64,000 nt of DNA from Melioribacter roseus (GTDB lineage Bacteria; Bacteroidota; Ignavibacteria; Ignavibacteriales; Melioribacteraceae). Where the stretch lies: the NCBI GenBank assembly GCA_020724265.1, contig DYHH01000010.1, positions 1-64,000 on the forward strand, given 5' to 3'. Shown piece after piece: positions 6,403 to 60,353 of this stretch; positions within the stretch are counted from its first letter, which is position 1, and each line of letters opens with the position of its first letter. Both the position numbers and the translations under genes were made by a program. Under the pieces are notes generated by a model, which was given only the letters and a program-made list of their open reading frames with translations, was not told the DNA's origin and made no database searches.

Positions 6403-7710
6403 ATGAATAAAAAAATTCTTCGGCTTGCAATCCCGAATATTCTAAGTAATCTTTCGGTTCCTATTTTAAGCTCTGTCGATACTGCGATTGTCGGGCATCT
6501 CGATAAAGTGTCCTACCTTGGCGCAATTGCTGTCGGATCGATGATCTTCAATTTTATTTATTGGGGATTCGGTTTTCTCAGAATGGGTACAACCGGTTTA
6601 ACAGCTCAAGCATTCGGAAGAAAGACCAACAACGAAATTATTCTTGTATTAGCACGTTCGCTTTCAGTCGCAGTTGCAGCAGCAATTTTAATTTTCGCGC
6701 TTCAGTACTTCATAAAAGAATTTAGTTTCCTTCTTGTAAAAGCTGAAGCCGATGTAGAAATGTATGCAAGAACATATTTCGATATTAGAATCTTTGCTGC
6801 ACCGGCAACTTTATCTTTGTATGCTTTTCACGGTTGGTTTTTAGGTATGCAGAATGGAAAGTATCCGTTGATTCTAACCTTGCTTGTGAATATTCTCAAT
6901 ATTGGTTTTAATTTTTTGTTCATTTATGGTTACGGAATGAACGTTGACGGTGTTGCATTAGGGACAGTTTGTGCACAGTATTTTGGATTAATAGCAGCAG
7001 TAATACTTTATCTAAAAAAGTATAAAAGCTTTACTGCGTCATTGGTAATAAAGAAAATACTTGATGTTGAACCGATTAAAAAATTCTTCTCGGTTAACTT
7101 TGATATCTTTGTTAGAACACTGTCATTAATTTTTGCATTCTCATTCTTTACTGCTGTCTCGGCTGATTTAGGGACGGAAATTCTTGCCGCCAATACAATT
7201 TTACTTCAGCTTTGGATGATACTTTCTTACGGTGTTGATGGCTTTGCGTTTGCCGCCGAAAGTTTGGTCGGAAAATATGTTGGTGCAAACAATAAAGAAA
7301 AATTAGTTCTTACTGTTAAGTATTCTTTTTATTGGGGTTTAGGACTTGGATTAATTCTATCCGTTATCTATTTCTTTTTTGATAGAGAAATTCTCTCTAT
7401 TTATACGGATAAAATCGATATAATAAATCTGGCTTCTGCTTATTTTTTGTGGACTTTAATTGCACCGATTTCAAATTCAATATGTTACATTTGGGATGGA
7501 GTTTTTATCGGTGCTACAGCAACCAAACCTATGCGAAATTCTATGTTGCTCAGTTTGTTGATTTTCTTTCTCCCGGTTTATTATTTAACCGTTGACAAAC
7601 TCGGTAATGATGCTTTATGGTTTGCAATGATTTCTTTTATGCTTGCACGCGGAGTTTTGTTGACAATATACGCACCAAAGTATATTTTCAGATTAGTTAA
7701 CAAAAGTTAA
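6403..7710 (+). CDS. MATE family efflux transporter
   Basis: Inner-membrane exporter of the multidrug and toxic compound extrusion family, driven by sodium or protons. The 435-residue protein has about twelve hydrophobic helices in two halves, with the DinF-like opening RLAIPNILSNLSVPILSSVD in which the last Asp is the conserved helix-1 acid. ATG at 6403 is chosen over the GTG one codon earlier. It follows proC by six bases, so it is likely in the same transcript. The substrate is not predictable. Confidence 0.9.
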   Translation: MNKKILRLAIPNILSNLSVPILSSVDTAIVGHLDKVSYLGAIAVGSMIFNFIYWGFGFLRMGTTGLTAQAFGRKTNNEIILVLARSLSVAVAAAILIFALQYFIKEFSFLLVKAEADVEMYARTYFDIRIFAAPATLSLYAFHGWFLGMQNGKYPLILTLLVNILNIGFNFLFIYGYGMNVDGVALGTVCAQYFGLIAAVILYLKKYKSFTASLVIKKILDVEPIKKFFSVNFDIFVRTLSLIFAFSFFTAVSADLGTEILAANTILLQLWMILSYGVDGFAFAAESLVGKYVGANNKEKLVLTVKYSFYWGLGLGLILSVIYFFFDREILSIYTDKIDIINLASAYFLWTLIAPISNSICYIWDGVFIGATATKPMRNSMLLSLLIFFLPVYYLTVDKLGNDALWFAMISFMLARGVLLTIYAPKYIFRLVNKS

Positions 7711-7740
7711 TCGTAACCATTTAAAACATAAGGGGGAATC

Positions 7741-8091
7741 ATGGATACCTCTCTATCAAAAGATGAAAGAATGTGGGGAATGCTATGTCATATTTCTGCA
7801 TTTGCATTTTTTATTTTTCCGTTCGGAAATATTATCGGACCTCTAGTAATCTGGTTAATTAAAAGAGATGTTTACCAGTTTGTTAATGAACAAGGAAAAG
7901 AATCACTTAATTTCCAAATCTCAATTACCATTTATGCGTTAGCAGCACTTTTGCTAAGCATAATTTTAATAGGCATACCAATATTAATTGCGTTGTTTTT
8001 CTTTAACTTTATAATGGTTGTCGTAGCCGCCATTAAAGCAAATGACGGTTATCATTATCGTTATCCGCTTTCTATTGAACTTATTCGTTAA
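7741..8091 (+). CDS. DUF4870 small membrane protein
   Basis: A 116-residue inner-membrane protein with three hydrophobic stretches and the DUF4870/Tic20-like pattern (LCHISAF, then GPLVIWLIKRD, then NEQGKESLNFQIS). The strong Shine-Dalgarno AAGGGGGAA sits six bases before the ATG. The family has no settled function. It lies 30 bases after the MATE gene and just ahead of the M14 peptidase. Confidence 0.85.
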   Translation: MDTSLSKDERMWGMLCHISAFAFFIFPFGNIIGPLVIWLIKRDVYQFVNEQGKESLNFQISITIYALAALLLSIILIGIPILIALFFFNFIMVVVAAIKANDGYHYRYPLSIELIR

Positions 8092-8105
8092 ATCTTGAGG
8101 TTATT

Positions 8106-10537
8106 ATGCTCCGTTTTTCTTTTACTGTGATTTTCTTTTTTCAATTAGTTTGTCCCTATTTTCTTCCGAAAATTATAAACAAGTTAAAGTTTCTCCTCAG
8201 CAAAGTACAATTAAACAAATTGTAGAATTAGGAATAGCTCTCGACCACGCCGATCGCACAAGTGATGGCAGCATTGCTTTCTTTGTTTCGGATGTTGAGT
8301 ATTTGCAAATGCAGCAGCTTAATATCCAGATGGATATTTTGATCGATGATTGGTATAAATATTATTCTGAACTTAAAAAGCTAACTCCTTCGGAGAAAGC
8401 CGAACAGCTTAATCAAACCGCAATGAATTATGGAGTGAAAAATTTCGAATTCGGAAGTATGGGAGGATATTATACTTTAAAAGAAATCTACAACAAAATT
8501 GAAGAACTATTGAATAATTATCCACACTTAGTCGGTGATTTGCAAATACTTGGTCAGTCTCATGAAGGAAGAGAAATTGTTTCATTTAAAGTTTCGGTTA
8601 ATCCGAATGTAGACGAAGACGAACCGGAAGTATTGTATACAGCCTTGCATCACGCACGCGAACCCGAAAGTATGATGCAGATGTTTTACTTTATTCAATA
8701 CCTTATTGATAATTACGAAACTAATGATGAAGTAAAATACTTGCTTAATAACCGTGCATTATATTTTATTCCGCTTGTTAATCCCGATGGCTATAAGTAT
8801 AACGAGGATATTCAACCACAAGGCGGCGGAATGTGGAGAAAAAATAGAAGTGTTAACAGCAATAATACTTTCGGTGTTGACTTAAATAGAAATTACGGAC
8901 CTTATGAGTATTGGAATGCTCCAAACGGTGGATCGTCTACCCAACCACATCAAGCAACTTACCGGGGACCCGAACCATTTTCTGAACCTGAATTAGTTGC
9001 TATAAAGAATTTTTTAAATAACAGAAATATACGTGCTTGCCTTAATTACCATACATATAGCAATCTGCTTATTTTCCCTTATGGTGCTATTCAAACTGAA
9101 ACTCCTGATTCAAATATTTTTAGAGAATTTACTGACGATATGGTTTCTAAAAATAATTATTTAGCCGGAACAGATATGCAGACAGTGAATTATTCTACAA
9201 GAGGCAACAGCGATGATTATATGTATGACGGTGAACCGGGAAGAGATAAAATATTTGCAATGACTCCGGAGGTCGGCGGTTTTGATGATGGATTTTGGCC
9301 TCCCGAACATCGAATTATTCCATTAGCCGAGGAAAATCTTTTTCCTAATTTATATTACGCTAATATTGTCGGTGGCTACCCTGCAGTTATTCATATGGTT
9401 ATTAGCAAGGAATTTCTTATACCCGGAGATCAAGTAAACATTTTTCCACTTGTCAGAAATAAAGGATTGGATGAATCCGGAAATTTTGATGTTCGGATTA
9501 AGTCATTAAATGAATTCGCTTCAATTGTATCGGAAGATATTCTAAGTTTCGAATCTTTAGAATCACAAAAGAATATTTTGTCAATGGGCTTTGTTGTTGA
9601 ATTTTCTAATATTATTTCTCCCGCAGCAATGGCATCATTTGAGTTTTCCGTTATTCAAGACAACCTGGTTCGTAGAAAAGATACTTTGAATGTTAGAATC
9701 GGCTATCAAAATATCCTGTTTGAAGATAATGCAGATAGCTTAGAATTATTTTGGGTATCGGAAGGAAATAACGACAAATGGGAAAAAACAAGTAAATATT
9801 CTGCGGTCGGTGATTATTCTTATACAAACAGTAAAGATGGTTTTTACTCAAATTCAAGTTATACTACATTAACACTTCGTGATGAAATTTCTTTGACAGG
9901 TTTTGGGAACGCTTTCCTTTGTTTTCAAACAAGATACCATATTGAAAATGCTTATGACGGAGGCTTCATAGAAATATCGTCTGATGGAGGAAGTTCATGG
10001 AACGTAGTTGGAGGAAATTTATCTCACCCTGCCGATGATGCTTTTAATCATCCTAATGCTGATATTAATTTTGGTGATCCGATATATTATGGTTCTCTTT
10101 TTTCGTGGAAACAGCAGGAAATTGATTTAAAAGATTTTGTTGATAATAATATTTTAATAAGATTCTCTTTTTGTTCGGATAACTATCGCGTAATTGACGG
10201 GTGGTATATCGATAATATAAAAATAATTGCATACGATTTATTGGCAAATGTTGATGATGATGAACTTGGTTACAAATTTTCATTGGAGCAGAATTATCCG
10301 AATCCGTTTAATCCGGTAACAACAATCAAATTTGGATTACCGGAAGATGGATTTGTTGATCTGCGGGTTTATAATATACTTGGACAAGAAGTTGCTAAAT
10401 TAGTAAACAAAGAGTTGAATGCGGGTTACCATCAAGTAAGCTTCGGAAACGATAATCTATCAAGCGGGATGTATATATACAGAATAAATGTAAAAGGAAA
10501 ATTTAATTCTGTGAAGAAGATGTTGCTTCTCAAATAA
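8106..10537 (+). pseudogene. M14 zinc carboxypeptidase with T9SS sorting domain, frameshifted in its signal peptide
   Basis: Secreted metallocarboxypeptidase. The long frame (8150-10537) has the zinc ligands HARE (about residues 168-171 from 8150), the substrate motif DLNRNYGP, the third ligand in NYHTYSN and the catalytic Glu in MTPEVGG. A beta-sandwich region with SSDGGSSW and a type A sorting domain (LEQNYPNPFNP to the C terminus) follow. The long frame has no ATG or signal peptide. An ATG at 8106 with a GAGG site at 8097-8100 opens in another frame and encodes MLRFSFTVIFFFQLV. One extra T in the six-T run 8136-8141 would join them into one normal signal peptide. The defect may be a sequencing error, a true mutation or a slippage switch. 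Confidence 0.85.
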
Positions 10538-10541
10538 TTTT

Positions 10542-10670
10542 GAGGCTGTAACAATAGTAAAATTTTTTATAGAATTGAAACACTGATACCCACGTCAAAG
10601 GACGGGCAGGCGCAGATTTAAACTGATTTCCACAGATTATTTATTTGAAATTTACTTTTAATACAGCCTC
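10542..10670. repeat. 129-bp intergenic element with 9-bp terminal inverted repeats
   Basis: GAGGCTGTA at 10542-10550 is matched exactly by TACAGCCTC at 10662-10670. The interior is unlike its AT-rich surroundings: it has a GC-rich patch (GACGGGCAGGCGCAG) and a segment related to CAGATTTAAACTGATTTCC next to CACAGATT, a style I associate with dispersed intergenic repeats. There is no coding potential. It fills most of the gap between the peptidase and the cyclase gene and could be a MITE-like repeat or a terminator remnant. Confidence 0.45.
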
Positions 10671-10766
10671 TTCCCCCGATTTTATATTATGTAATCAAAA
10701 AGACTTTACATCTGTTTTTTATTTCATTTATATTCCTTATAAAGTTATAACAAAATTGAGGTAACA

Positions 10767-11543
10767 ATGAATAGAATTGTATTAGTTCTTATAGCGTTCT
10801 TATTGACAATCAATTTATCCGCACAGGAAAGAAAGATAATTGACTTAACTTATGCTTTCGATGAAAACACAATCTTCTGGCCTACACAGGAGGGATTTCA
10901 GTTGATTGAAGATTTTCACGGAATGACAGACAAAGGATATTTCTATTCATCTTATGGATTTAAAACTGCCGAGCACGGAGGTACTCATTTGGATGCACCG
11001 ATTCACTTTTATGAGGGTAGATATACTTCGGATGAAATCCCGCTTGAAAAATTTATCGGACAAGCTGTTGTAATTGATGCATCGAAAGCATGTGCCGAAA
11101 ATAGAGATTACCTTTTCAGTATTTCCGATTTTGAAAAATGGGAAGCCGAGCACGGAAGAATTACGGATGAATCAATTATATTATTAAAAAGCGGTTACGG
11201 AAAATATTGGCCAGATAGAGAAAAATATATGGGAACTGCAGAACGCGGAGAAGAAGCAGTTGCAAAACTTCACTTTCCCGGGTTAAGCGAAGAAGGAGCA
11301 AAATGGTTGGTGATGCAACGAAAAATTAAAGCTGTTGGTATTGATACACCAAGTATAGATTATGGTCAATCGAAATATTTCAAAGCACATGTTGTTTTAT
11401 GTGAAGCTAATACTCCGATTTTAGAGAATGTTGCCAACTTGGATTTACTTCCGCCAAAAGGATTTGAAGTAATTGCCCTACCAATGAAAATTAAAGGCGG
11501 AAGCGGCGGTCCTACACGGATTATTGCTTTACTCGAGGAATAA
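10767..11543 (+). CDS. Exported cyclase-family (KynB-like) metal hydrolase
   Basis: Member of the PF04199 cyclase/kynurenine formamidase fold, metal-dependent amidases and lactonases. The family signature HxGTHxDxPxH is complete at residues 70-80 (HGGTHLDAPIH), and the C-terminal half keeps the GIDTPSIDYG motif. A Sec signal peptide (MNRIVLVLIAFLLTINLSAQ) places it in the periplasm or outside, unlike cytoplasmic KynB. A TTGAGG site precedes the ATG. There are no kynurenine pathway neighbours, so the substrate is open. Confidence 0.88.
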   Translation: MNRIVLVLIAFLLTINLSAQERKIIDLTYAFDENTIFWPTQEGFQLIEDFHGMTDKGYFYSSYGFKTAEHGGTHLDAPIHFYEGRYTSDEIPLEKFIGQAVVIDASKACAENRDYLFSISDFEKWEAEHGRITDESIILLKSGYGKYWPDREKYMGTAERGEEAVAKLHFPGLSEEGAKWLVMQRKIKAVGIDTPSIDYGQSKYFKAHVVLCEANTPILENVANLDLLPPKGFEVIALPMKIKGGSGGPTRIIALLEE

Positions 11544-21097: not shown

Positions 21098-21312
21098 AGT
21101 AATCTAAAACTACATTTCGTCCTATTATAGAATAGTTAATAGATAGACGAATTCAGGAAATTAAACTGCCGGAGTTAATATTTTGAAAAATCTTGTTCCA
21201 CTGCATCGGCATCAAGCCTCGATTTTCTTTTTTCACTTATTCATATTACCTTTCCACTCGATTGTTTTTCTTTTCTATTTGTAAGTTAAAATTTTTCAAA
21301 AGGTTGCTCGGT

Positions 21313-56361: not shown

Positions 56362-56407
56362 TTGAGTTCCTTTTTGAAAATTGTTCAAATAATAAATTGA
56401 TAAATTT

Positions 56408-58773: not shown

Positions 58774-59052
58774 ATGCCGAAACTCGTTTCTGTTGAACCT
58801 CGTGATTCAAGAAAAATTTTTCTTAAATATGATGACGGAGTTGAAGGACAAGTTGATTTAACAAAAACTATCGAAAGAAATGTTTTTGATGATTTAAATG
58901 ATCTTAAAGAATTCTCAAAAATTTATTTTAATGAAAACACAGACGAACTCTGCTGGCCATGCGGAGTTCGGATGTGTACTAATGCATTATATAGACAGGT
59001 TTCGCTTCTCTCGTTAATGGATCGATTAAAAATAAGTATCGATAATGTTTAA
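58774..59052 (+). CDS. DUF2442 family protein
   Basis: A 92-residue protein of the DUF2442 family, seen from KLVSVEPRDSRKIFLKYDDGVEGQVDL split at the start, VFDDLNDLKEFSKIYFN and DELCWPCGVRMCTNALY. Members are small cytoplasmic proteins, often in toxin-antitoxin-like contexts, with no proven function. It starts one base after the dehydrogenase stop and overlaps the YidD-like gene by eight bases. Confidence 0.82.
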   Translation: MPKLVSVEPRDSRKIFLKYDDGVEGQVDLTKTIERNVFDDLNDLKEFSKIYFNENTDELCWPCGVRMCTNALYRQVSLLSLMDRLKISIDNV

Positions 59053-59494
59053 TAAATTTTTTTTAACAATCATATTTATTACTGCAGTTAATCTCTCCGC
59101 ACAAATAGAAACTTATAAATGGCAACCGAATGAAGTTGATTATCGATTGAACATACCTGTTGCTAAAGAATACAAAATAATTACTTCTAATTTTTCTACT
59201 TTATTAATTTCATTTTGTCAAGCTGTATATTACTCTGTCTTTTCGGAATATGACGGTGATAATTGTCCGTTTCATCCCTCGTGCTCTGCTTTTTTTGTTG
59301 AATCGGTTGAGCGGACAAATATTATCGAAGGTGGCTTAATGTTTGCCGATAGATTTACACGCGATATAAATTTCTTTAAAGGATATAACAGTTATCCGCT
59401 TCATTTTACCGGTAGATTTTATGATCCGGTTTACAAATACAAACTTCTTCCTCTCACAGAATTAGTTGAATTAATAAAATCAGAAAATGATTAA
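59045..59494 (+). CDS. yidD: Exported YidD-like protein
   Basis: A 149-residue protein with the YidD (PF01809) core: ISFCQAVYYSVFSEYDG in place of the usual LIxxYQxxISP, then NCPFHPSCSAFFVESVER (C74, C80) and a late FYDPVYKY. Classical YidD is about 80 residues, lies beside yidC and rnpA and acts at the inner face of the membrane. This one has a Sec signal peptide (MFNKFFLTIIFITAVNLSAQ), lacks the third conserved Cys, and is overlapped by two TPR membrane genes. Its role is probably different and is not known. Confidence 0.82.
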   Translation: MFNKFFLTIIFITAVNLSAQIETYKWQPNEVDYRLNIPVAKEYKIITSNFSTLLISFCQAVYYSVFSEYDGDNCPFHPSCSAFFVESVERTNIIEGGLMFADRFTRDINFFKGYNSYPLHFTGRFYDPVYKYKLLPLTELVELIKSEND

Positions 59495-60353
59495 ATCTTT
59501 TTTCTCCCGACTAATTATTTTTTCGATGATTCTGACAATTGTTAATCAAGCACAGGATAATGTTTTTTTAAGCATCGAAAACAGATTGAGATTTGGTGAT
59601 TTTCTTTTTTGTGATAATGATTATCTCCGTGCAATCGATGAATATAAAATAGTACTTAAGAATAAAGAAAGTGATATGCTTAAATTCAAAATCGCCTTAG
59701 CATATCAAGAATTAAAAAAATATAACGAATCGGAAAATTCATTCAAAGAATTATTTTCGAGTCAACAATTTGCAAATGAGGCAAAGTTCGAATACTTCAG
59801 AACACTTTATCTTTCTGACAATTTTGAAATGATGGATAAACTGATAAAGGATGATTCATTTATTGATGCATCCACAAGTAAAGAGATTAAAAAGCTGTAC
59901 AATTTGAAGCATCTTTACTCGCAGTTTCACATTGAAGATTCATCGGATTTCTTTGATCCTTTCAATGATAAGGAAAGTGTTGAACTCCTTAAATATTTTA
60001 TTAGAAAACAAAATATTGAAAATAAAAGTCCGGCGTTTGCTGCGGTTCTAAGCGCAGTTGTTCCGGGATTAGGGAAAGTTTATACTGAAAATTATGGAGA
60101 CGGAATAACAGCCTTCTTATTAACCGGGGTACTTACATTTTTAGCAATAGATAATTTTAATGCCGAACATGACTTTAGAGGTTGGTTGTTTACCGGTTTA
60201 GCCGCATATTTTTATTCAGGAAATATATACGGCTCGGCAACCTCGGCTCAATTATTTAATGCCGGTGCACGAATAACATTCGATAACGATTTGCAATTAT
60301 TTCTAAATAAGAATAACCACTTTATTCCTAATAATAATTTGTTTTGCAAGTAG
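59487..60353 (+). CDS. TPR protein with C-terminal PGxGxxYxxNY membrane domain (copy A)
   Basis: A 288-residue exported protein with a signal peptide ending near NQAQD, TPR-like helices (about 25-165), then a hydrophobic domain that begins LSAVVPGLGKVYTENYGDG (P193) and contains YFYSGNIYGS (Y243). The next gene encodes a paralogue with the same order. The PGxGxxY motif recalls TM2 or DUF5683 domains. The start overlaps the YidD-like gene by eight bases, so the products are probably made together. No function is known. Confidence 0.78.
   Translation: MIKSFFSRLIIFSMILTIVNQAQDNVFLSIENRLRFGDFLFCDNDYLRAIDEYKIVLKNKESDMLKFKIALAYQELKKYNESENSFKELFSSQQFANEAKFEYFRTLYLSDNFEMMDKLIKDDSFIDASTSKEIKKLYNLKHLYSQFHIEDSSDFFDPFNDKESVELLKYFIRKQNIENKSPAFAAVLSAVVPGLGKVYTENYGDGITAFLLTGVLTFLAIDNFNAEHDFRGWLFTGLAAYFYSGNIYGSATSAQLFNAGARITFDNDLQLFLNKNNHFIPNNNLFCK

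Follow-up and report, generated by a model that had tools for sequence, protein, structure and literature searches.

The window, as we call the whole 64,000-nucleotide stretch of Melioribacter roseus DNA analysed here (genome G000, contig DYHH01000010.1, positions 1 to 64,000), encodes a zinc carboxypeptidase on its forward strand, where all features of the gene described below also lie. A gene caller would report a peptidase frame of 795 codons without internal stops, starting from a TTG at 8150 (8150-10537). It contains a zinc carboxypeptidase M14 domain (8486-9340; Pfam PF00246, E 4.3e-64, 217 bits against a cut-off of 21.6), an InhA-like MAM domain (9842-10258; PF20773, E 9.6e-9) and a T9SS type A C-terminal sorting domain (10295-10522; PF18962 and TIGR04183, both above their cut-offs). 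Residues 105-402 of the M14 part align to carboxypeptidase T (3v38_A, E 3.5e-55), the best solved match, and the M14 domain retains the HHARE, NRNYG and HTYS motifs, which we take to be catalytic or zinc-binding motifs of M14. While the M14 domain and these motifs are common to carboxypeptidase T and the window gene, the latter adds a MAM-like domain and a T9SS tail, and its signal peptide is out of frame. The C-terminal sorting domain is also common to T9SS type A cargo, and a SprA homologue in G000, scoring above the family cut-off, agrees with the presence of a T9SS. Unlike such cargo, the window sequence as given cannot make an in-frame N-terminal signal peptide. An Rfam search of positions 7500-11000 gave no match.

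The peptidase frame, which opens after a TGA at 8096, offers no common start codon before the TTG at 8150. The first ATG lies 70 codons in, and there is no in-frame Sec signal peptide in this frame as given, which bears out the initial annotation in describing a long peptidase frame that lacks both a usable ATG and an export signal. Another frame starts at an ATG (8106-8108) downstream of a GAGG (8097-8100), likely the ribosome-binding site of the original start, and ends after 39 codons at a TAG (8223-8225; whole frame 8106-8225). It reads MLRFSFTVIFFFQLVCPYF... and runs through a run of six Ts (8136-8141). Its first 12 codons encode the first part of a signal peptide, and the remainder is an out-of-frame reading up to the TAG. 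The second part of the signal peptide (SISLSLFSS; 8141-8167, its end placed by eye) lies in the peptidase frame. The coordinates first reported for the GAGG, the ATG, the T run and the stop all hold.

We compared this gene start with that of the M14 orthologue of a same-genus relative, G001 (locus L010, also recorded as L039), which has 83% amino-acid identity to the window's enzyme. All 19 bases of window positions 8090-8108, which include the GAGG and the ATG, are the same in G001 (AAATCTTGAGGTTATTATG). The G001 signal peptide, MFRFVFSVMFFFLISLSLFSS, runs in-frame into the ENYK of the enzyme. In a blastn alignment against G001, the T run of the window carries a one-base deletion; this run has eight Ts, in frame, in G001 and six in the window. 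Since the signal peptide of G001 is in-frame with its enzyme, the run in the window is missing one base. The comparison of sequences thus confirms that the break in the signal-peptide frame with respect to relatives is real and not due to chance.

A search of the family identified the M14 body in 26 of 79 genomes, with 29 matches including the window's own. One of the 28 other copies is cut by a contig end, and all 27 with a readable N-terminus have an in-frame ATG, homologous to that at 8106, followed by a hydrophobic signal-peptide core. The same holds for 12 of 12 copies from elsewhere in the order, outside this family, which have an in-frame ATG and a signal peptide; signal peptides were called by a hydropathy rule and by eye, without a dedicated predictor. 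We also read the N-termini of 22 orthologue loci, a set that leaves out L039 (the same record as L010), L042 (whose N-terminus is as in L011), L043 and L044 (other proteins, whose match lies in a different part) and L045 (an N-terminal sequence gap). L040 repeats the family member G080, with the same N-terminus, and L041, a named record, was read but enters neither count. As all readable orthologues have an in-frame start, the break in the window is a singleton: it is found in one genome, and the homologues (27 family and 12 other-family copies) are intact. Orthologues that start at the TTG at 8150 and lack the signal peptide were looked for and did not occur. TTG 8150 was rejected as the native start, given that the 22 orthologue loci and the 27 readable copies start upstream of it with a signal peptide. 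Reinitiation or coupling was likewise rejected, because the short frame does not stop until 8225, which is past TTG 8150. The proposal that the signal peptide had been shifted out of frame is therefore upheld, both by the same signal peptide being in-frame in orthologues and by the one-base deletion relative to G001.

At a threshold of E 1e-30, the M14 gene is absent from 53 of the 79 family genomes, including those of the same-genus relatives G002 and G003. This absence indicates that loss of the gene is tolerated. The adjoining DUF4870 gene is kept in all four genomes of the genus that were compared and the M14 gene in only two of them (window 8091-10766, compared with L168 of G002 and L167 of G003). 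Judging from this distribution, the M14 gene is a patchy, dispensable neighbour of the DUF4870 gene. The intergenic stretch just 3' of the peptidase gene (10532-10672) resembles other intergenic stretches, with approximately 73-80% identity over some 130 bases in several G001 contigs. It also matches contig C21 of G000 (92% over 49 bases), and pieces of it occur in L080 and L085, so that it is possibly a member of a short dispersed repeat family.

The enzyme body contains no further lesion in its 795 codons. In an ungapped alignment with G001, dN/dS is 0.06-0.16 over the first 640 codons, indicating purifying selection; values for the final 155 codons (dS 1.5) deserve less confidence in this alignment. 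At the non-coding rate relative to G001, approximately 14 frame-breaking indels are expected in an unconstrained body over the window's branch, and none was seen. This difference suggests that the loss, if real, is recent, and would place it within roughly the last fifth of the window's branch as a crude estimate. An intact, conserved body would fit equally with an error in the sequence of a working gene.

We also considered the quality of the assembly. Nine G001 contigs were compared with the window over 41,701 aligned columns, of which 39,637 bases were coding and 1,990 non-coding. Indels of a length not divisible by three numbered 11 in the coding DNA and 23 in the 1,990 non-coding bases. 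The only uncompensated frameshift among the coding ones is that at 8136, while the other ten (59071-59930) fall in two divergent genes, in each of which they offset one another. The alignment of these two adjacent genes (59045-60353) with G001 is poor and interrupted by numerous small indels that compensate one another, a pattern not shared by the rest of the window, and the two genes may be evolving fast. Two further apparent coding indels relative to G001 were set aside because they lie upstream of the likely gene start, that at 56376 in both genomes compared and that at 21200 as judged on the window side only. No frameshift was confirmed relative to G002 in 154 orthologue pairs (approximately 57,000 residues), a comparison that is blind to about the first 20 codons. 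The one candidate at G000 C52:109.9 kb turned out to be a conserved leader that is non-coding and precedes the real ATG. The spectra of A/T run lengths agree between samples of G000 (851 kb) and G002 (1.2 Mb) and the nine G001 contigs. The normal spectra and the scarcity of frameshifts indicate that the assembly has no general homopolymer problem.

Four explanations were weighed for the break, with weights set by judgement and without computation. We consider it about an even chance that the sequenced strain or population carries a recent, isolated one-nucleotide deletion in a gene that most members of its family lack. The gene would normally encode a secreted M14 carboxypeptidase in which a Sec signal peptide precedes the M14 domain, with a MAM-like domain and a T9SS sorting tail behind it. 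Loss of a single base at the T run, within the core of the signal peptide, would have disrupted this arrangement. Ribosomes initiating at the conserved ATG would then terminate after 39 residues, leaving an intact enzyme frame without a start codon that carries a signal peptide. Considering the early stop together with the lack of a signal-peptide start in the enzyme frame, no exported enzyme should be made. We infer that the deletion is present in cells, that it is recent and that it would abolish export. The case does not differ in kind from the singleton frameshifts and recent pseudogenes classed by the GeneTack survey, with one lesion in one genome and an intact body (PMC3711429). That survey, which covered genomes up to 2013, expects homology-confirmed singleton frameshifts to be sequencing errors more often than real indels (PMC3711429), an expectation that counts against a recent deletion. 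An isolated sequencing or assembly error, with the run truly one base longer and the gene normal, is a serious contender to which we give rather less than an even chance. A single-base lesion at a homopolymer is in line with such an error, as are the conserved body, the lack of a second lesion and the absence of any of the expected indels. Against this, the assembly has no excess of such errors, with the caveat that the G002 comparison does not cover the gene starts. Six Ts are also a short run for modern reads, which likewise counts against an error.

A third explanation is that slippage of RNA polymerase or the ribosome at the T run restores the frame and yields some exported enzyme. In its favour, the enzyme body is conserved, the junction coincides exactly with a T run and the change needed is -1. 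Two studies report that transcriptional slippage grows with the length of the run and is nonzero at shorter runs (PMC5574713, PMC1088944), which counts in favour of recoding. According to the latter, selection against slippage is evident at nine As or Ts in a large proportion of genomes (PMC1088944), but there are only six Ts here. Furthermore, the in-frame heptamer is C TTT TTT and not X XXY YYZ, and the RNA is not unusually structured (fold z-score of -1.45 downstream and -0.91 for the whole region). Neither a slippery heptamer nor a long A/T run with a stimulator was found at the site. The frame transition is not conserved either, as no relative among the 27 family copies and the 12 of other families has this arrangement. 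We regard recoding as improbable. The least probable explanation in our judgement is a homopolymer phase switch, in which changes in the length of the T run turn export of the enzyme on and off. A break in a homopolymer within a gene for a secreted protein would suit a switch, as would a run length unlike that of G001 (six against eight). However, the tract is short, and phase-variable homopolymer loci usually have longer ones; a long hypermutable tract was not found at the site. None of the 27 readable family copies is in the off state, and their longest T run in the first 75 nucleotides ranges from 3 to 8 with the frame unbroken. T runs of at least six are also ordinary: among 50 signal-peptide-like ORFs sampled from G000, 8 have one in their first 75 bases, and 747 kb of ORFs, with overlapping ones included in the count, contain 388 runs of exactly six Ts. 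The signal peptide is in-frame in 22 of the 23 T9SS-tail frames of the 851 kb G000 sample, the sole exception being the window gene, which speaks against G000 having a set of such switches. A second apparent exception, at C41:91324, was dismissed: this T9SS-tail gene did not pass the hydropathy rule, but its signal peptide, whose N-region is longer, is recognisable by eye. Poly-T phase-variable surface genes such as sabA of Helicobacter pylori (PMC2715451) likewise have a frame-shifting homopolymer close to the 5' end of the gene for a surface or secreted protein. In contrast to such genes, the tract in the window is short, no off state is seen in relatives and, with one genome per species compared, no length variation is known within the species. 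We thus consider it very doubtful that the genus controls the export of a surface carboxypeptidase by a slow genetic switch, with six Ts as the off state, other lengths as the on state and this population caught in the off state.

Of the three possibilities raised by the initial annotation, a fresh mutation and a sequencing error thus survive, while the homopolymer on/off switch is not supported, considering that the tract has six Ts, that G001 is in-frame with eight, that 27 of 27 copies are on and that such runs are common. The locus lends no support to a new switching mechanism. The locus matters mainly for annotation: a gene caller will use an internal start and drop the export signal, or flag a pseudogene, even though the enzyme encoded here in relatives is an exported one. 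Provided that the deletion is real, the gene would be a clean case of a secreted enzyme lost by breaking only its export signal.
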